DNA of 64,000 bases. Origin: Candidatus Chloroploca asiatica. Its GTDB lineage: Bacteria > Chloroflexota > Chloroflexia > Chloroflexales > Chloroflexaceae. The stretch covers positions 1-64,000 of the forward strand of contig NZ_LYXE01000083.1 in NCBI RefSeq assembly GCF_002532075.1, in the 5' to 3' direction. The notes beneath the pieces were generated by a model. It was not told where the DNA came from, did not search any database, and saw only the letters and a list, made by a program, of their open reading frames with translations. Numbering within the stretch: position 1 is the first letter of the stretch; every line of letters starts with the position of its first letter. Shown one piece after another: positions 54,497-64,000 of the stretch. The position numbers were made by a program, and so were the translations under genes.

Positions 54497-55612
54497 ATGC
54501 GCGTCGCGATCATTCACGATTATCTGAATCAGTACGGTGGTGCCGAGCGGGTCCTCGAGGCCCTCTGCGAGTTGTTCCCTGATGCGCCTGTCTATACCTC
54601 GATTTATGATGCCGAGGCGATGCCAGGCCACTATCGTACGTGGGATATTCGTACCTCGTTTATGCAACGCCTTCCCGGTTGGCGCAAGCACTTTCGCCGC
54701 TACTTCTTGCTCTATCCCACCGCCTTCGAGAGCTTTGACTTTAGTGAGTATGACCTGCTGATCTCGAGCAGCAGCGCCTATGCCAAAGGGGTCATGCCCC
54801 GGCCTGGGGCCTTGCATATCTGCTATTGCCATACGCCGATGCGTTTTGCGTGGCGAACACGTGAGTACATCGAGCGTGAAGAGATTACTGGGTTGCAACG
54901 GGTGCTGTTGCCGATCGGTTTGACCTATGTTAGACTCTGGGATGTCAGTACGGCGAATCGTGTCGATCGGTTTGTCGCTAATTCATACGAGGTCGCCGGA
55001 CGCATTGCACGTTATTACGGTCGTTCCTCGCAGGTGATCGCCCCGCCGGTGGATCTGCCTCCGTACGAGCCACGGCCGACGGGTGATTTCTATCTGGCGG
55101 GTGGTCGACTTATTCCGTATAAGCGGATCGAGTTGATTATCGAGGCGTTCACGAAATTGCGCCTACCCCTCAAGGTTTTTGGTGACGGTCGCGACCGCCA
55201 GCGTCTCCAGCAACTTGCTGGCCCAAATATCGAGTTTCTTGGCTGGGTGGATGAAGCAACCCGCTGCGATCTCTTTGCTCGCTGCCGTGCGTTTATCTTC
55301 CCCGGTGAAGAAGATTTTGGTATTACTCCGCTCGAAGCAATGGCGGCCGGCCGCCCGGTGATTGCCTATGGTGCCGGTGGTGCGCTCGAAACAGTGATTG
55401 ATGGCGTGACCGGGCGCTTTTTTCATCAGCAGACTGCGGCAGCGGTTGCGGCAGCAGTTGCGGCTTCTCACGCAGACTGGTATGATCAAGCTGCGATCCG
55501 TCGTCACGCCGAGCAGTATCGGCGCGATCTCTTTCTTAGTCGGATGCGCACGTTGATTGATGAGACGCTGCAAGATCATCAACAGCAGCGCCTCCCACAC
55601 GTTCGTTCGTAA
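54497..55612 (+). CDS. GT4-family glycosyltransferase, first gene of the second glycan locus
   Basis: A 371-residue GT-B enzyme of the WbaZ/mannosyltransferase-like branch. MRVAIIHDYLNQYGGAERVL is the acceptor-side Gly-rich start, FYLAGGRLIPYKRIELIIEA the donor loop, and FPGEEDFGITPLEAMAAGRP the EX7E motif. This pattern often uses GDP-mannose. Two -10-like boxes (TGCTATCCT at 54411-54419 and TGGTAGACT at 54421-54429) lie 70-80 bases upstream. Four genes for chain-length and kinase control follow within 50 bp in total, so the locus is one operon. Confidence 0.86.
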   Translation: MRVAIIHDYLNQYGGAERVLEALCELFPDAPVYTSIYDAEAMPGHYRTWDIRTSFMQRLPGWRKHFRRYFLLYPTAFESFDFSEYDLLISSSSAYAKGVMPRPGALHICYCHTPMRFAWRTREYIEREEITGLQRVLLPIGLTYVRLWDVSTANRVDRFVANSYEVAGRIARYYGRSSQVIAPPVDLPPYEPRPTGDFYLAGGRLIPYKRIELIIEAFTKLRLPLKVFGDGRDRQRLQQLAGPNIEFLGWVDEATRCDLFARCRAFIFPGEEDFGITPLEAMAAGRPVIAYGAGGALETVIDGVTGRFFHQQTAAAVAAAVAASHADWYDQAAIRRHAEQYRRDLFLSRMRTLIDETLQDHQQQRLPHVRS

Positions 55613-55616
55613 GCCT

Positions 55617-56306
55617 ATGCATCTTCGTGAATACATTGCGCTGCTGTTGCGTTATTGGCCAGTGCTGGTTGTTTTGCCGTTGCTGACCGCTGGTCTGAGT
55701 ACGCTGACGCTGCTCGGGCGTACTCCAGTTTTCCAGACAACGGTGCGCTTGATGGTGACCCAGGCTCCTGAACCTGATCCGGAGTTGCCGCTGCCGCCCC
55801 TTGATGTCGGTACAACCTGGCTCACAACAGCGTATATCCTTGATGATTTGCCCGCTGTGATCTCCAGCGCGCTCTTTGCTACCGATGTTCAGGCCGCGAT
55901 GGCGGCACAGGGCTATGCCCTTGAGGTGCCTGCGATCCAGGGCGGTTTGCGTGTCGAGACGACCCATCGCTCGGTGCTGCTTAGCGCAACGGCCGCAACT
56001 CCCGAACTGGCTGTTGCGATGGCGCAGGCGGCTGTGACGAGTCTCCATGAGGGTGGGTTGGTCTACTGGGGCCGCTTCCCCGCCGGTGGGTTGCAGGTGC
56101 AAGTGATTGATCCCCCGGGGGCCGCTGCTTCGTCGCAGAGCCTCACCGGACTGGTGCGTGAAGTGGGCCTGCGGGTTGCCCTGGCGCTTGTCGCCGCGGT
56201 GGGCATTGCGCTTGGCCTTGCATATCTTGATGATCGAATCTATCATGCACGTCAGGCCGAACGCTGGACGGGCGCACCTGTGCTTGGCGTGATTCCTGAA
56301 GAATAA
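55617..56306 (+). CDS. Wzz-like chain-length determinant, first copy
   Basis: About 229 residues from the ATG at 55617, four bases after the previous stop. TM1 is LLRYWPVLVVLPLLTAGLST and TM2 is LRVALALVAAVGIALGLAYL. The extracytoplasmic domain between them is about 160 residues. The tail DDRIYHARQAERWTGAPVLG ends in the GV/IP motif (LGVIPEE) found before the kinase domain in fused Wzc proteins. It is an adaptor that sets chain length and activates the BY-kinase. A second, similar gene follows 11 bp later. Confidence 0.85.
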   Translation: MHLREYIALLLRYWPVLVVLPLLTAGLSTLTLLGRTPVFQTTVRLMVTQAPEPDPELPLPPLDVGTTWLTTAYILDDLPAVISSALFATDVQAAMAAQGYALEVPAIQGGLRVETTHRSVLLSATAATPELAVAMAQAAVTSLHEGGLVYWGRFPAGGLQVQVIDPPGAAASSQSLTGLVREVGLRVALALVAAVGIALGLAYLDDRIYHARQAERWTGAPVLGVIPEE

Positions 56307-56317
56307 GTGAGGGTGCG

Positions 56318-56971
56318 ATGCAGTTACGTGATTATGGGCTTGTGCTCGCGAAACGCTGGTGGGTGGTTGTGCTGACCCTCGTTGCTGCGGCAGTGGCGGC
56401 GTATGGGGTCAGCAAGCTGATCCCTCAGACGTTTCGCTCGCAGGCGGTCTATCTGGCCCTGGCGAATCAGGCTGATAATGGCCTGAATATTGTGCTCCGT
56501 AATTCGATGAATAGCTACCGCGAATTGGTGATGCAGCCCGATGTGCTCGACCAGATTAGCCAGGAGATTGGCCTCGATATTAGCGGTGAACGCTGGATGC
56601 GCGATGTTAATATTCAGCCTCGCCCTGATGAGCAGAAGATTATTATTGAGGTGGACGCACCAACGCTCGATCAGTCGATGGCAATGGCCGATGCCGTGGG
56701 CAATCGCCTCGTTGCGGAAGTGAACCGCATTAACGCGACGCTCGAGGGCACCGCCCGGATCAATGTGCAACGTATTCAGCAGGCCCGCCTGACCGCTATT
56801 CAACCCAATACACGTATCAATGTGCTTGCCGGGGCGCTGCTTGGTCTGATGCTCGGGGTGTTGCTGGCCTATGTGCTTGAGTATCTTGATGATACGCTCA
56901 AGAGTAGTAGCGATGTTGAGCGTTTTGTTGGCTTGACGACCTTGGGCGCGATTCCTACCGTTGAGCCATAA
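56318..56971 (+). CDS. Wzz-like chain-length determinant, second copy
   Basis: A 217-residue protein with MQLRDYGLVLAKRWWVVVLT and TLVAAAVAAYGV as TM1, an external domain of about 130 residues (VQRIQQARLTAIQPNTRINV) and TM2 VLAGALLGLMLGVLLAYVL. The cytoplasmic end is EYLDDTLKSSSDVERFVGLT then LGAIPTVEP. The LGAIP motif and DDTLKS match Wzz/Wzc adaptors. It is only weakly similar to the first copy, so the two may form a mixed ring or act at different stages. GAGG lies five bases before the ATG. Confidence 0.88.
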   Translation: MQLRDYGLVLAKRWWVVVLTLVAAAVAAYGVSKLIPQTFRSQAVYLALANQADNGLNIVLRNSMNSYRELVMQPDVLDQISQEIGLDISGERWMRDVNIQPRPDEQKIIIEVDAPTLDQSMAMADAVGNRLVAEVNRINATLEGTARINVQRIQQARLTAIQPNTRINVLAGALLGLMLGVLLAYVLEYLDDTLKSSSDVERFVGLTTLGAIPTVEP

Positions 56972-56986
56972 AACGAGGAGATAGCT

Positions 56987-57655
56987 GTGGGTGCCAATGG
57001 TTCTTCGCCCGAGACGACGTTGATTACGCTGCGCGACCCTGGCTCGCCTGCGGCTGAGGCGTTTCGTACCCTGCGTACCAATCTGCTTTTTTCGAGCCTT
57101 GACCGGCCGCTCCATACGCTGCTGGTCACCAGTACGGCCCCTGATGAGGGCAAGAGTACGACCCTGGCGAATCTGGCTGTGACGATGGCGCAGGCCGAAC
57201 AGCGGGTGCTGATGGTTGATTGTGACCTGCGCCGCCCCAGTTTGCATACGATCTTTGGGGTGCCCAATGAGCGTGGTCTGACCAGTGCCGTGCTTGCGCA
57301 GGACGATGGCCCCTTGCCCATTCAGCCGACGAGTGTCCCCGGTCTCCATGTGCTGACCAGTGGGCCGTTGCCCCCGCGCCCCGCCGATCTGCTTGGCTCA
57401 CGCCGTATGGGTGCCCTGATCGAGCGGATGCGCTCTGAGGCCGAAATTGTGCTCTTTGATACGCCCCCGGTCGTGGCGGTTACCGATGCCGCGACGCTGG
57501 CCCCCCGGGTTGATGGGGTGTTGCTCGTGCTCCATGCTGGGCAGACCCGCCGCGACCGTGCCCGTGAGGCGCGCCGCCTGCTCGAACAGGTCAAGGCCAA
57601 TATCGTTGGGGTGGTGCTCAATGGGGCGAAGGTGGAGCGGGGTTATGCGTATTAG
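56987..57655 (+). CDS. Bacterial tyrosine kinase (BY-kinase), CpsD/CapB type
   Basis: A 222-residue cytoplasmic kinase. It starts with GTG, supported by GAGGAG six bases before. Walker A is STAPDEGKSTTLANLAVTMA, Walker A' LMVDCDLRRPSLHTIFG, and Walker B IVLFDTPPVVAVTDA. The C-terminal tyrosine cluster is short, only GYAY, against four to seven Tyr in CpsD. It needs the Wzz-like adaptor's tail for activity. With CpsB-type phosphatase next to it, it would cycle phosphorylation to control polymer length and export. Confidence 0.9.
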   Translation: MGANGSSPETTLITLRDPGSPAAEAFRTLRTNLLFSSLDRPLHTLLVTSTAPDEGKSTTLANLAVTMAQAEQRVLMVDCDLRRPSLHTIFGVPNERGLTSAVLAQDDGPLPIQPTSVPGLHVLTSGPLPPRPADLLGSRRMGALIERMRSEAEIVLFDTPPVVAVTDAATLAPRVDGVLLVLHAGQTRRDRAREARRLLEQVKANIVGVVLNGAKVERGYAY

Positions 57656-57663
57656 GGGAGCAT

Positions 57664-58443
57664 ATGATTGATCTGCATTCCCATATTCTCCACAATATTG
57701 ATGATGGTACTCGTTCACTGCAAGAGGCCGTTGCCCTTGCGCGGGCTGCCGTTGCTGATGGCGTGACGATCATGGCCGCAACGCCCCACGGTGCTAGTTC
57801 GGTCAGTACCTGGACCCGCTATGAGGTTGACCTTGCACGCAAGCGCCTCGCCGAGGTACGTGCAGCTCTTGCGCACGAGGAGGTGCCGCTTCAGCTTATC
57901 TCAGGTACTGAGATCTATGGTGAGCCGGGTGCGCTTGAACGCTTGCAAGCCGGTGCGCTCTTGCCCTACGAAACAGGTCGTGCTGTACTCGTTGAGTTTC
58001 CGTTGCATATTACCCCGCAGGCTGCCGAGCAGATTATCTTTGGGTTTCAACTCGCGGGCTATCGGGTTGTGCTCGCCCATCCTGAGCGTTATCATTTTGT
58101 GCTGCGCGACCCCAATACCTTGCTTCCAATGATCGAGCGCGGGATCGTGATGCAACTCACCTGCGATGCGTTGCTCGGTGTTCAGGGTTCGCGTATGAAG
58201 ATGCTGGGCGAATTGATGGTGCAGCATGGCCTGGTGCAGATCCTCGCGACCGACGCCCACGGCTTGCACCTCGGGCGCGTACCGAATCTGGGCGCAGCCC
58301 GCATACGTGTCGCGCAACTCGTGAGCGAGCAACTCGCCGATGCCCTCACCCGCCTGCACCCCGAGGCTATTCTCGCTGATGCGCCACTGACGCCCATGCC
58401 TCCCTCGCGCATTCGCAATTGGGACGGCTCTCGCTACGCCTGA
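57664..58443 (+). CDS. CpsB/YwqE-type tyrosine phosphatase (PHP domain)
   Basis: A 259-residue metal-dependent phosphatase. MIDLHSHILHNIDDGTRSLQ is the first metal-binding motif (HxH...D), MAATPHGASS the second, GTEIYGEP the third, VVLAHPERYHF the fourth, and LATDAHGLHLGRVP the fifth. It dephosphorylates the Tyr of the BY-kinase encoded upstream and resets the cycle. The ATG has GGGGAG four bases before it, overlapping the kinase stop, so the two are coupled. It closes the locus. Confidence 0.92.
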   Translation: MIDLHSHILHNIDDGTRSLQEAVALARAAVADGVTIMAATPHGASSVSTWTRYEVDLARKRLAEVRAALAHEEVPLQLISGTEIYGEPGALERLQAGALLPYETGRAVLVEFPLHITPQAAEQIIFGFQLAGYRVVLAHPERYHFVLRDPNTLLPMIERGIVMQLTCDALLGVQGSRMKMLGELMVQHGLVQILATDAHGLHLGRVPNLGAARIRVAQLVSEQLADALTRLHPEAILADAPLTPMPPSRIRNWDGSRYA

Positions 58444-58866: not shown

Positions 58867-59928
58867 TTATTGGAAAAGCACTTCCCTGAGCAGTTCTTCC
58901 AGGATCGTGGCCGTGACCGCATGGTGACGGTACGGTGGGGCGGTGCGCTGCGGGTAGACCCGATTGCTCAACACAACCAGGGCTAGTTGAGCATGTGGTA
59001 CGCCAATGATGGCTGGCCCGGTAAAGCCGGTATGCCCAAAGCTTCCTCTGGGCGCGGACCCCATAAAGTTGGCCCGATCCAACATCCACCCCAACCCGCT
59101 CGGCAGTGCCTGCCCTGCGTCAGTTCGGAGCTCGGCAGTTGCATCACGTAAAGCGAGCGCAACCGTGGCTTCGTGCAGCACCTGCTGATCTGCCCAGGCA
59201 CCACCCTGCAGCCACATGCGCACCAGTCGTTCAAGATCGCGGGCGGTGCTGAAAAGCCCGGCGTGTCCTGCGACCCCTCCCAGCGCATAGGCACTCTCGT
59301 CGTGAACCACGCCATGCACGAGCCTCTGCCGCCACGTATCATCCCATTCTGTTGGTACAATGCGTTCGCGTAAGGCTCCTGAGGGGCAGTAGCCGGTTTC
59401 GCGCATGCCCAGAGGGTCAAGCACAAGTTTCTGGACAGCCTGGTCAAGGGGGATGCCCGCGACGACTGCAACAATCTCGCCAAGCAACAGACTATTGATA
59501 TTGGTATAGGCCAGCTGCGTCCCGGGTGGTTTGACTGGTTCAGCGGCGTAGATTGCAGCCTGAATGCCTGCTGCCCCCTCGTTGCGTAGGGTCGAGAGGC
59601 GCAGAGCCAAGCCCGAGCAATGGGTCAACAGATGGCGTACCGTGACGTGTTGTGCTCGTGCGGCTGGGAGATAGAAAGTGATCCCTCGGTCGAGCGTCAG
59701 TTCACCAAGATCATAGAGGCGCAAGGCCGCTGTCGCCGTCACTACTTTGGTCAGCGAGGCAATGTCAAAGATATCGTCACGCACAATCGATCGCGTGCCC
59801 TCATCTTCGTACATCGTTGTGCCATACGCCTGATCGCGCAACGTTGCTCCGTCACGGGTTGCCAGGATGACCGCCCCCGGAAAGATGCGTGCTGCAATGG
59901 CCTGCTGGATCACAATCGTTTGTCTCAT
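58867..59928 (-). CDS. Serine hydrolase of the beta-lactamase/DD-peptidase family
   Basis: A 353-residue enzyme. The SxxK motif is FDIASLTKVVTATAAL, with the Ser nucleophile; the second motif YxN is LAYTNINSLLLGE; the third is GSFGHTGFTGPAIIG with HTG. The set is typical of class C beta-lactamases, EstB esterases and peptidases such as PBP4*. There is no signal peptide, so an intracellular esterase or lactamase-like function is possible. The ATG overlaps the stop of the lipoprotein gene (59925-59928), which ties its expression to the PP2C-like operon. Confidence 0.9.
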   Translation of the reverse strand: MRQTIVIQQAIAARIFPGAVILATRDGATLRDQAYGTTMYEDEGTRSIVRDDIFDIASLTKVVTATAALRLYDLGELTLDRGITFYLPAARAQHVTVRHLLTHCSGLALRLSTLRNEGAAGIQAAIYAAEPVKPPGTQLAYTNINSLLLGEIVAVVAGIPLDQAVQKLVLDPLGMRETGYCPSGALRERIVPTEWDDTWRQRLVHGVVHDESAYALGGVAGHAGLFSTARDLERLVRMWLQGGAWADQQVLHEATVALALRDATAELRTDAGQALPSGLGWMLDRANFMGSAPRGSFGHTGFTGPAIIGVPHAQLALVVLSNRVYPQRTAPPYRHHAVTATILEELLREVLFQ

Positions 59929-60500
59929 CCCTCGGTCATATACCAGCTACTGCCAACCTGGATGACGGGCAACCCGCCACTCGTTTGCCCAAGCACTCCT
60001 GTCAGGTCACTGGTTCGTTCACGTAGCACGTTGCCCTCTGCATCAAGAAAGACCAGGACAAATGTGCCGTCAACAACATTGACCAGGGCCCGCCCCTCTT
60101 CACGACTCAAGATCTCGACATAGCTGTAGGTGATCGTGAGGGTGACACGGCTTCCCACCACGGGCTGGTTCGAGGTTGTCACAAAGTTGAGCAGCATCTG
60201 GCTCATCGCATTGCGTTGATCGACCCGCTCACTCGGCGCAAAATGGCTCGCCAGCCGTTCGGCCCAACTCCGCCGTACCTCTGGATCAGTCAGGTTCTCT
60301 TCAGCGAGCGCGGTATTCAGATCTTCGATAAAACTTTCAACCACTGCCTGCGGGCTTGACGCACCTGCGCCTGCGACTTCTTGCTCGGCCACCGTGACAC
60401 AGCCGGACAGCAGCAGCAGGACAAGCACCAGGAAGAGTCTCGGCATAGGCCAGGGCACGACGCGAGGTTGCGCGTACCGTATGCTTGGTTCGCCCAACAT
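59925..60500 (-). CDS. Lipoprotein in the PP2C-like operon
   Basis: About 191 residues from the ATG at 60500, one base after the previous stop; an ATG at 60446 would give a shorter signal. LVLVLLLLSGCVTVAEQEVA is a lipobox, so the mature protein begins at Cys and is lipid-anchored on the outer face. The body is helical then beta-rich (SPQAVVESFIEDLNTALAEE, VEILSREEGRALVNVVDGTF), similar in shape to NTF2-like domains, but no family is sure. It is fixed between the PP2C-like gene and the hydrolase and could be the external partner of the propeller. Confidence 0.6.
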   Translation of the reverse strand: MLGEPSIRYAQPRVVPWPMPRLFLVLVLLLLSGCVTVAEQEVAGAGASSPQAVVESFIEDLNTALAEENLTDPEVRRSWAERLASHFAPSERVDQRNAMSQMLLNFVTTSNQPVVGSRVTLTITYSYVEILSREEGRALVNVVDGTFVLVFLDAEGNVLRERTSDLTGVLGQTSGGLPVIQVGSSWYMTEG

Positions 60501-60501
60501 C

Positions 60502-63081
60502 TTATGGTGTCCCCTCGCCACTCTCACGAAATGAACGTGGTGGTGACGGCAGTTCAGCCTGGATGATCTGGTTAGCATTGACGAGATAGAGCTTCGTGCG
60601 GATGCCATCGTTCGTGACCGTCAGATTATTCAACTCATCCAGGCGAAGTGGGCCGTCAGTCCGCACCTTGATCTGTTGAATAATGGTGCCGCTTACCTTT
60701 TCCATCTGGAGAATACGCTCATTCAAGGTGTCAATGAGAAAGAAGTGGCCGTCTTCGGGTGATGTTCCAGTCACAACAAAGCCGCGCACGATCGTCAACG
60801 GAGGATTGATTCCTTCTGGTTTCACTTCACCAACAAATTGGCCCTGACTAAAGACGAGCACAGTGCCATCGGCCCGCAGTAAATAGATGCTCCCATCAAC
60901 AGCCATATCAACCACGGTACTCAGATCGACATCAGCCAGACTATTGACATCAAGCCAGTAATCGGGGGCATCACTATAACTCCCCGAGCGAAAGCGCAGT
61001 ACCTCATTAGCGACTGCGCCCCAGACATAGAGATTGCCGCCATACTCACGCACTCGCAACCGGTCGCGGAGACGCCAGATCTCGCTTGCCCCGAGTTTGG
61101 CGTAGTTCCAGCTTGATCCGGTACGAAAATAGTACCCAAAGCCACTCGCAGCCTCGTCAATCGCGACGACCTGGTCAATGCGCCAGGTCGCTGCCCGCAC
61201 TGGCCCAACCACCGTTGAACCAACCCCCTGCCCAGGGCTGAGAAATGGCTCGGCACGGCCTCCCTCCTGGGGGATGCGGTAGAGCCGACTATTCTGGGTG
61301 TCGATATCAACGGCGTAGATATACTGCAAACGTTCGAGCAGATTTGTATCGGTCACATTGGTCATCACTGGGGGCACAATCACATCGGCAAAGCGCCCGG
61401 TGGCAAGCGGATGTATCGCCACCACCACAGGTTCATCAAGAAAGGTAATGCGCTGCACGGATGCTAGGGCACGTTCGTACTCGCGTTGTAATTCTTGATA
61501 GCGGAGCCAGAGCGTCGGATTCGTCGTTGTAATGAGCGCACTGCTCCGTAGCTCATCAATCGCTTCACGGGCAAACTCCAGCGTCACCAGTGCTTCGTTG
61601 GTGTCTTCGGCGCTCCGCACAGTCGCCAATTGTTCGTCGGCGACCGTGAAGTATTCGAGCACAATCTGCTGATCATTCTGGAAGCTCAAATTCATGCCGT
61701 AGATCACCAGGATGGTGATCATGAGCAATAGACCAAGTAAGAGCGCCCACGAAAAAGGCGGTCCTTTGCGCCGGTACGAAAGCCCTTGGCCTCGATGGAT
61801 CGGACGTTGCGGTTGCACCGTTCGGCGGACGTGACGTTCACGGAAATAGCCATTGATGCTACTGCTCATCCGTTGGAAGGGAAGGGCAAGTCGTTCCCCC
61901 CAGGTTAGATCGACGAGGGGGCGTTCTTCGTAGCGGGGGCGGTATGGTCCGGCACCGCTGATTGTCTCTTCACTACTCAGATCGATGCGACGGCTGCCTG
62001 AAACGGGCACCGTCCCTTCACCGAGAAAGGTTGAAGGGGGTAGGTTTTCGAGCCGGAGCGGTGCGGTGTCGGCCCGTACTTCGCGCAGCCGTGCGTAACG
62101 ATCCCCAATCTCGTCACCAAGATTGATCGGTGTTGCGCGAGGGATTGGCGCCGTCGAGTATCTTGGCTCGTCCGGCATCCGTTGCATCTGATCGATCGGT
62201 TCAGCCTCGGGCTTGTTAGGAACCGCTTGATTGCTTCGTTCGGGTCGCCGCCTCAACGTGCGCTTTAGTTTGTCTACCCATCCACGCATCCCTGCCATCT
62301 GCGCCCCCTGCATCGTGTCGGTCGTGCTCTTGCTGGGGACGACCTGGCGGTTGCGAGGCTTCGCTTCAGGGGTAAACCTGATCACTAGGGCATGGGGATT
62401 GTCGAGTCCATGGGTGTGGGCAAGCTCTTCAAGTCGTTCCAGCATGACCGTGGCGTCATCTTGCCACAGTCTGGCTTCTACCTCGGTGCGGCTCAGCAGT
62501 TGGGCAAAATCACTCGAACAGAGCAAGGCCGCGCCGCCTGTTCCTATGCTTGCACGGTAGAGTTCGGGCTCGACAAAGAGACTTGCGCCCAGGGCCGTGG
62601 CCTGGGCAAAAGGCAGGGCATTGGTGCTGGTAGGATCCCAGACGGCATGGGATGGCAAGGCTCGAATGCGCCCCTCACTCAGGATGTACGCCTGTGCCGG
62701 TTGTACCTGAACAAGAAAGAGATCAGTGTCACGGACGATGGCACACGTTAGCCCAACCAGTACGCGGTTGTCGGTTGCATGCTTGAAATTGTGTTCGTAG
62801 AGCGCCTTGTTGGCGGCGCGGATCGCGGACCGTAGGGCTGACGTGATGCTGGACGAGGAGTCTCGATAAAAGGTGCGCTGGATCACACTGGCAACCAATT
62901 CACAGGCGGCCAGGCTTGCTTTGCCCTGGTCAGTCGCTTCAACAACCAGATAGAGTTGTCCTTTGCGTGCCTCGGGGCCAAAAGGCGAGGCTGGGATGAC
63001 CTCGCTGATTAACGCACGCTGGGCCTGTTTGTTCTCGGGAACTAGCCCGAACTGAGCACTCTGGATCGCAATGCGCGACAT
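60502..63081 (-). CDS. Transmembrane protein with degenerate PP2C-like domain and beta-propeller-like tail
   Basis: About 859 residues from the ATG at 63081 (GGAGGAG upstream). Residues 1-235 align by eye with PP2C: LYLVVEATDQGKASLAACEL where PP2C has VADGxGG, LFLVQVQPAQAYILSEGRIR where it has VGDSRAY, AALLCSSDFAQLLSR where it has LCSDG, and GLDNPHALVIRF where it has DNxT. The metal-binding Asp-Gly, Gly-Asp and Ser-Asp-Gly are replaced, so it should be inactive. A Pro/Arg-rich linker (about 240-420), one TM helix (FSWALLLGLLLMITILVIYG) and a C-terminal beta-propeller-like domain follow. It likely senses outside and signals inside. Confidence 0.7.
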   Translation of the reverse strand: MSRIAIQSAQFGLVPENKQAQRALISEVIPASPFGPEARKGQLYLVVEATDQGKASLAACELVASVIQRTFYRDSSSSITSALRSAIRAANKALYEHNFKHATDNRVLVGLTCAIVRDTDLFLVQVQPAQAYILSEGRIRALPSHAVWDPTSTNALPFAQATALGASLFVEPELYRASIGTGGAALLCSSDFAQLLSRTEVEARLWQDDATVMLERLEELAHTHGLDNPHALVIRFTPEAKPRNRQVVPSKSTTDTMQGAQMAGMRGWVDKLKRTLRRRPERSNQAVPNKPEAEPIDQMQRMPDEPRYSTAPIPRATPINLGDEIGDRYARLREVRADTAPLRLENLPPSTFLGEGTVPVSGSRRIDLSSEETISGAGPYRPRYEERPLVDLTWGERLALPFQRMSSSINGYFRERHVRRTVQPQRPIHRGQGLSYRRKGPPFSWALLLGLLLMITILVIYGMNLSFQNDQQIVLEYFTVADEQLATVRSAEDTNEALVTLEFAREAIDELRSSALITTTNPTLWLRYQELQREYERALASVQRITFLDEPVVVAIHPLATGRFADVIVPPVMTNVTDTNLLERLQYIYAVDIDTQNSRLYRIPQEGGRAEPFLSPGQGVGSTVVGPVRAATWRIDQVVAIDEAASGFGYYFRTGSSWNYAKLGASEIWRLRDRLRVREYGGNLYVWGAVANEVLRFRSGSYSDAPDYWLDVNSLADVDLSTVVDMAVDGSIYLLRADGTVLVFSQGQFVGEVKPEGINPPLTIVRGFVVTGTSPEDGHFFLIDTLNERILQMEKVSGTIIQQIKVRTDGPLRLDELNNLTVTNDGIRTKLYLVNANQIIQAELPSPPRSFRESGEGTP

Positions 63082-63113
63082 AGCTTCTCTCTCCTCCGCC
63101 TTCACTCCTTGCG

Positions 63114-63122
63114 ATTATAGCA
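63114..63122 (-). promoter_or_regulatory. Extended -10 promoter of the PP2C-like operon
   Basis: On the minus strand this reads TGCTATAAT. It lies 4 bases from the -35 box of the opposite-strand promoter, so the two operons share a compact control region. Confidence 0.65.
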
Positions 63123-63125
63123 TGG

Positions 63126-63154
63126 TTGCCCTCAACCCCGGGGCGGACTATAAT
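63126..63154 (+). promoter_or_regulatory. Promoter of the FHA-GAF gene
   Basis: TTGCCC (63126-63131), a 17-base spacer, and TATAAT (63149-63154). The transcript would begin near 63161, giving a leader of about 105 bases before the ATG, with GGAG six bases from it. Confidence 0.6.
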
Positions 63155-63266
63155 AGACCCAGGTTTGTTGCAATGTGCCAGCCGACACTGTGATGCATGC
63201 CATAGGTCTCCAGGATTGATCGGGGCACAACCATGGCTGCCGTCGTTCGCCAGCCCGGAGTCTCGC

Positions 63267-64000
63267 ATGGCCCGCATTACCGTCACCTTACATGATGAAC
63301 TTCGTACCTTTGCCGTTGCCCCCGGCGGACTCTCGATTGGTCGCCAGTTAGATAATGCCATTGTCCTGAATCATCCGATCGTTTCCCGAAAGCATGCACG
63401 CATCGAGTGGCGAGGGCGTCAGGTCTGGGTCAAAGATCTCGATAGCCGCAATGGGGTGACGGTTAATCGCCTTCGGGTCAAGGAAGAGCAACTCACCGAT
63501 GGCGATATCATTGGCATGGGCCCTTTTGAACTTCAGTTTGAAGATCGGGCCGTCCAGAGTGTCTTCCTCGACGATCAGCGTTATTATCCCCTTGCGTCGG
63601 ATGGCCGTACGGTTAGAGCCCACGAAATTCCCCTTGAACCTGCCGATCTCCAGACCGTTTATATGATCGGGATCAGGTTGAACCAGGTGCTCGATTTTCG
63701 CGAGTTGCTTGATCTGGTGATGGAAGAGGTGCTCCAGGTTGTTCCGGCTGAACGCGGTCTGCTTTTACTGCGCAAAGATGATGAATTGGTGCCCAGGGTT
63801 GTGTTACCTGTCGGTACAGGTGATGTCGCTATTTCCAGTACGATTGTCCGTAAGGCGATTGATGCCCGCGAGGCGATTTTGACCCGTGACGCCCGGCTTG
63901 ATTTTGCCGAGGCCGATAGCATTATCAGTGCCAATATGCGCTCGGCTATCTGTGCGCCCCTCTTGCTCCAGGGACGTGCCATAGGCATCATTTTACTTGA
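63267..64000 (+). CDS. FHA-GAF signalling protein (3' part beyond the window)
   Basis: The frame from the ATG at 63267 stays open to the last base, 244 codons. Residues 1-95 form an FHA domain: GGLSIGRQLDNAIVLNHPIV with the GR, SRKHARIEW with the SxxH, and DLDSRNGVTVNRLRV with the NG motif that reads phosphothreonine. From about 128 a GAF domain begins (LNQVLDFRELLDLVMEEVLQ, ERGLLLLRKDDELVPRVV, SAICAPLLLQGRAIGIILL). The missing C-terminus probably carries a cyclase, kinase, phosphatase or DNA-binding domain. It is divergent from the PP2C-like operon with back-to-back promoters. Confidence 0.88.
   Translation, partial: MARITVTLHDELRTFAVAPGGLSIGRQLDNAIVLNHPIVSRKHARIEWRGRQVWVKDLDSRNGVTVNRLRVKEEQLTDGDIIGMGPFELQFEDRAVQSVFLDDQRYYPLASDGRTVRAHEIPLEPADLQTVYMIGIRLNQVLDFRELLDLVMEEVLQVVPAERGLLLLRKDDELVPRVVLPVGTGDVAISSTIVRKAIDAREAILTRDARLDFAEADSIISANMRSAICAPLLLQGRAIGIILL

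Follow-up and report, generated by a model that had tools for sequence, protein, structure and literature searches.

In this study we analysed a stretch of 64,000 nucleotides from Candidatus Chloroploca asiatica (contig NZ_LYXE01000083.1, positions 1 to 64,000; hereafter the window) and describe a gene near its end, borne by a genome of 5.84 Mb, together with its neighbours (Table 1). The stop codon TAA of this main gene ends at 60502 and an in-frame ATG of the lipoprotein gene lies at 60500, leaving one base between them; the start shared with homologous lipoproteins is probably the one at 60446 rather than that at 60500. The reading frames of lipoprotein and hydrolase overlap by 4 bases. Hence the coupling within 1-4 bases that an initial annotation of this DNA had noted is correct when counted from the ATG at 60500. 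The same annotation had described a divergent FHA-GAF gene. Orientation and domains were right, but the gene is cut by the end of the window, and the full protein of 511 amino acids is an FHA-GAF-class III nucleotidyl cyclase (PF00211, 1.7e-30), which raises the possibility of a cAMP/cGMP link. The gene after it, at contig position 64856, appears by sequence to encode a PSP1/RicT homologue. An exopolysaccharide cluster lies at 55557-58443 of the window, with Wzz-like chain-length and tyrosine-kinase-like genes (both by eye) and CpsB/CapC genes (Pfam).

Table 1. Genes and protein features at the locus (positions in the window; residue numbers refer to the product of the main gene)
Feature	Position	Strand	Remarks
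Main gene, whole	60502..63081	minus	859 aa from ATG; pseudo-PP2C, linker, TM helix, helical stalk, propeller
PP2C-fold domain without catalytic aspartates, residues 1-241	62359..63081	minus	Profile, AlphaFold, Foldseek
Linker, residues 242-427	61801..62358	minus	Poor conservation, probably flexible
Linker island LPPSxFLGE...IDL, residues 346-372	61966..62046	minus	Conserved short motif
Single TM helix, residues 443-463	61693..61755	minus	Conserved basic stretch before helix
Three-helix stalk, residues 470-543	61453..61674	minus	Structure prediction; predicted outside
Beta-propeller, NHL/SMP-30-like, residues 545-848	60538..61449	minus	Predicted fold; predicted outside
Lipoprotein	59925..60446	minus	173 aa, LLSGC lipobox; adjoins main gene in 24 loci of same family
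Serine hydrolase, beta-lactamase fold	58867..59928	minus	Neighbour only in genus Chloroploca
FHA-GAF-nucleotidyl cyclase	63270..64000, on to contig position 64802	plus	Next to main gene and divergent in 14 of 49 loci

The main gene encodes two folded parts joined through one membrane helix. Seven lysine and arginine residues stand before the helix and none after it, and the charge bias has the same direction in the relatives that we sampled. By the positive-inside rule the N-terminus is therefore probably cytoplasmic and the propeller outside. For stalk and propeller (residues 470-850) AlphaFold gave a model with a pLDDT of 91.3, and in fold comparisons it resembled NHL, SMP-30 and YCF48-type propellers as well as the outer domain of PknD. 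The hydrophobic helix, the charge bias and this model support the proposal that one TM helix joins the N-terminal domain to an outside propeller. PP2C domain and propeller are equally conserved (majority identity 0.58 and 0.59), whereas the linker reaches only 0.36-0.48 outside its island and 0.36 in its first part; the phosphatase-like domain has therefore been kept by selection. In this otherwise variable linker the island might serve as a docking or modification site.

Searches of Pfam and the PDB with the single 859-residue sequence were empty, so that profiles were needed. Across 41 members of the family Pfam gave weak, scattered propeller and PP2C_2 matches and nothing else, and no Hanks kinase domain was found within the 859-residue protein; no domain of the family is annotated above any curated cut-off. 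The NCBIfam model Stp1_PP2C (NF033484) matched the single protein at residues 58-142 with an E-value of 1.8e-7 and 30.9 bits, below its cut-off of 230 bits. An N-domain profile built from 41 relatives found tPphA in the PDB at 1.2e-10 over residues 35-231 and PstP of Mycobacterium at 4e-5. AlphaFold, run on residues 1-241 with 49 sequences, returned a model with a pLDDT of 86.3 and a pTM of 0.86, for which the leading Foldseek matches were PstP, PppA and tPphA (E about 1e-12, TM 0.68-0.75), with PstP as the best of them (E 1.1e-12, TM 0.71-0.74). The profile match to tPphA and the Foldseek match to PstP rule out a chance resemblance to PP2C. An alignment that had originally been made by eye is thus now backed by statistical homology and by fold, and structure prediction, which had been proposed for residues 1-235 and 500-859, yielded a PP2C fold and a propeller respectively.

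The active site differs markedly from that of the PPM/PP2C Ser/Thr phosphatases (PstP, tPphA, Stp1, PppA) with which the domain shares its fold and significant profile similarity. At the places of D18, D34, G35, D119 and D193 of tPphA the window protein has A, E, A, P and S, so the residues of the binuclear metal centre are not retained. The alignment maps D34, G35, D119 and D193 to E48, A49, P128 and S190. D18, which the profile alignment does not reach, was assigned less surely to A23 from the motif and the predicted strands, and a counterpart of D231 was not surely placed. Among 64 close relatives position 128 is always Pro, position 190 is Ser in 63 and Thr in one, and position 48 is Glu in 60 and Asp in four. 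At the D18 place 40 of the 64 retain Asp, and D or E is common near D231. In view of D34, D18 and the uncertain D231, the claim that each metal-binding motif was lost is slightly too strong. A set of 38 distant relatives was found through the C-terminal half and so was not selected on the state of the active site. Here too Asp is absent from position 128 (Pro in 32 of 38) and rare at position 190 (two of 38, with gaps in four). A Q-x-x-P-x-Q motif occupies the place of GDSR in active enzymes, and E48, Q125, P128, Q130 and S190, all invariant or nearly so, fall, when mapped on tPphA, in the loops that bear the PP2C catalytic motifs; S78, R84, N91, N98 and W148 are conserved as well. With Pro and Ser for the catalytic D119 and D193 and Ala for G35, no activity would be expected. 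We thus find the features that define a pseudophosphatase, namely a PP2C fold, lost metal ligands and retention of the domain by selection, and judged from its sequence the N-terminal domain is apparently an inactive phosphatase.

The protein is an old, usually single-copy and mostly vertically inherited family that is widespread in Chloroflexota. Its nearest named relatives, in Candidatus Chloroploca sp. Khr17 and Ca. Chloroploca mongolica, share 92-94% identity with it along its length. Of 61 genomes from the genus, family and order, 60 have it, nearly always as one reading frame, and within the class a C-terminal profile matched in 133 of 158 genomes. Across the phylum at least 171 of 400 Chloroflexota genomes carry a match, nearly always in single copy; few candidates per genome were scored, so that this figure is a lower bound and absences are uncertain. 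The N-domain accompanies the C-terminal half at 38 of 40 distant loci. Beyond Chloroflexota the search was a pattern-based scan of genome contigs, and none of the loci that it gave has a record naming a different phylum. In a tree, 49 pseudo-domains were separated from 32 canonical Chloroflexota PP2Cs by one branch with 100/100 support, and the split persisted with the motif columns left out (SH-aLRT 99). All pseudo members stand on one side of this single branch. The metal site was therefore probably lost just once and long ago, and on the same ground we reject the idea that activity disappeared several times independently.

The initial annotation had taken the four genes together for an envelope signalling set. 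This did not survive a survey of 49 loci in the order, for some of which the contig stops before the neighbours are reached. The lipoprotein gene lies directly downstream in 24 of the 49 loci, in Chloroflexaceae and relatives including Chloroflexus, and follows the main gene throughout the family. The hydrolase gene adjoins in two loci, both of the same genus, and is rejected as part of a conserved unit; the FHA gene, divergent from the main gene, does so in 14, none of them in Chloroflexus, Roseiflexus or Herpetosiphon. The loci of other families have different neighbours, among them SurE, YchF, Zwf (in some loci), ClpC, TsaD and a TPR protein (names other than TPR assigned by eye). Clustering of the neighbourhoods of 60 loci gave no phylum-wide partner. 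In one group of the class, ten related loci have the TPR protein, of about 700 amino acids, encoded immediately upstream in the same orientation. TsaD is directly downstream in five of 40 distant loci; in five distant Chloroflexota families tsaD comes after the main gene at a distance of at most 10 bases or overlaps it, an operon-like link to tRNA modification that recurs. In another family (three loci) a secreted protein of about 300 amino acids follows the main gene, with a small lipoprotein too in two of them; one of these has a MecA_N/NTF2-like match, and the small lipoproteins are perhaps analogues of the window lipoprotein.

Could the dead domain bind phospho-Ser/Thr proteins and, possibly with the FHA-GAF-cyclase, relay the state of the envelope? 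Such signalling through phosphoprotein binding, as originally proposed, agrees with the PP2C homology and with the divergent FHA-GAF-cyclase gene in the 14 loci. The genome of the window and most holders of the gene possess Hanks kinases, and gene and kinase co-occur weakly (odds ratio 1.9, p 0.017, without phylogenetic correction). However, the FHA gene is missing beside the main gene in the three genera named above, and the domain has lost the metal ligands by which a substrate phosphate is usually held. More telling are 24 Chloroflexota genomes chosen for having the gene and no Hanks kinase at 1e-20, of which 21 carry the N-domain too. In a search covering Hanks-type kinases, 22 of the 24 contained no Hanks-type Ser/Thr kinase at E<=0.01, and in 15 of these 22 there was not a single candidate. 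One of the 24, a single-contig genome (G179), has neither a Hanks kinase nor a canonical PP2C (PP2C_2) match. This genome and others of its family measure 3-4 Mb and have no detectable Hanks-type kinase, which is unusual for Chloroflexota. Most of the kinase-less genomes that keep the gene, G179 among them, have one SpoIIE-type phosphatase, so serine phosphorylation is not absent there. Retention of the gene in the 22 genomes without Hanks kinases argues against phosphoprotein reading as the core job and is the main argument for docking that is independent of phosphate, even if other phosphorylated partners could occur. We therefore consider phosphoprotein reading unlikely as a general explanation; it could still operate where kinases exist, as in the genome of the window.

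The other alternatives turn on the former active site. If this site bound a small molecule or an ion in the cytoplasm, the protein might be a receptor that signals outward to the propeller. The invariant and nearly invariant residues in the loops of the PP2C catalytic motifs would suit such a pocket, yet we found neither a ligand nor a homologous case of ligand binding, and the conserved S78, R84, N91, N98 and W148 elsewhere in the domain would be left unexplained; we regard this reading as improbable. Still less can be said for an enzyme with an altered metal site, holding for example one metal by E48 and D23. The Glu for D34 in 60 of 64 close relatives, the Asp at the D18 place in 40 and the acidic residues near D231 would fit it, but D119 and the metal ligand D193 are lost in all 64 and the window protein itself has Ala at the D18 place, which makes it very improbable. 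Hardly any credence is due to the idea that the protein merely anchors the propeller while its N-terminal domain does nothing specific: a mostly housekeeping and variable gene context would agree with it, but the PP2C domain equals the propeller in conservation and has its own set of invariant positions.

We put the chances at about even that the protein acts in the Chloroflexota envelope as a single-pass receptor or anchor, with its dead phosphatase domain serving to dock a cytoplasmic partner. Outside the membrane, the propeller would bind an envelope ligand or protein, and in Chloroflexaceae the co-oriented lipoprotein would be its likely partner. On the inside, the former catalytic cleft, fixed around Q-x-x-P-x-Q, E48 and S190, might form the docking surface for a cytoplasmic protein. 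Docking of this kind would work without enzymatic removal of phosphate and mostly without reading it. Against this explanation counts that the gene neighbourhoods outside Chloroflexaceae differ and give no function. Tentatively, at a little under even chances, we put forward a wider idea: these pseudophosphatase receptors had a single origin close to the base of Chloroflexota and work without Hanks kinases, their PP2C fold having become a kinase-independent docking domain that is coupled across the membrane to a propeller. They would possibly be the first bacterial PP2C pseudophosphatase family to be described. We found no description of a bacterial PP2C pseudophosphatase among the open-access papers searched, and nobody seems to have described this protein family. 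As a single-copy, phylum-wide family it is a candidate core component of the Chloroflexota envelope, the biology of which is poorly known, and the species that keep the gene without kinases make the phospho-reading and scaffold ideas separable by experiment.

Among known systems PknD of Mycobacterium tuberculosis has a similar plan: a cytoplasmic kinase, one TM helix and an outside NHL propeller. Its outer domain (1rwl) is a top fold match of our propeller (E 1.6e-7, TM 0.45/0.64). The likeness of an NHL-like propeller after the TM helix is one of fold alone; in sequence the two propellers show no significant similarity (E 0.89). The two proteins differ in that the inner domain of PknD is a kinase and not a dead phosphatase fold, and in the three-helix stalk that precedes the propeller here. 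TAB1 and PHLPP2 are PP2C pseudophosphatases of eukaryotes, which likewise keep a PP2C fold with diverged metal ligands for non-catalytic roles (PMC12002173). The Chloroflexota pseudo-PP2Cs form a branch of their own with respect to the Chloroflexota PP2Cs, in a tree that covered Chloroflexota sequences. Whereas TAB1 and PHLPP2 are eukaryotic and have other domain partners, the Chloroflexota family is bacterial, anchored in the membrane and joined to a propeller.
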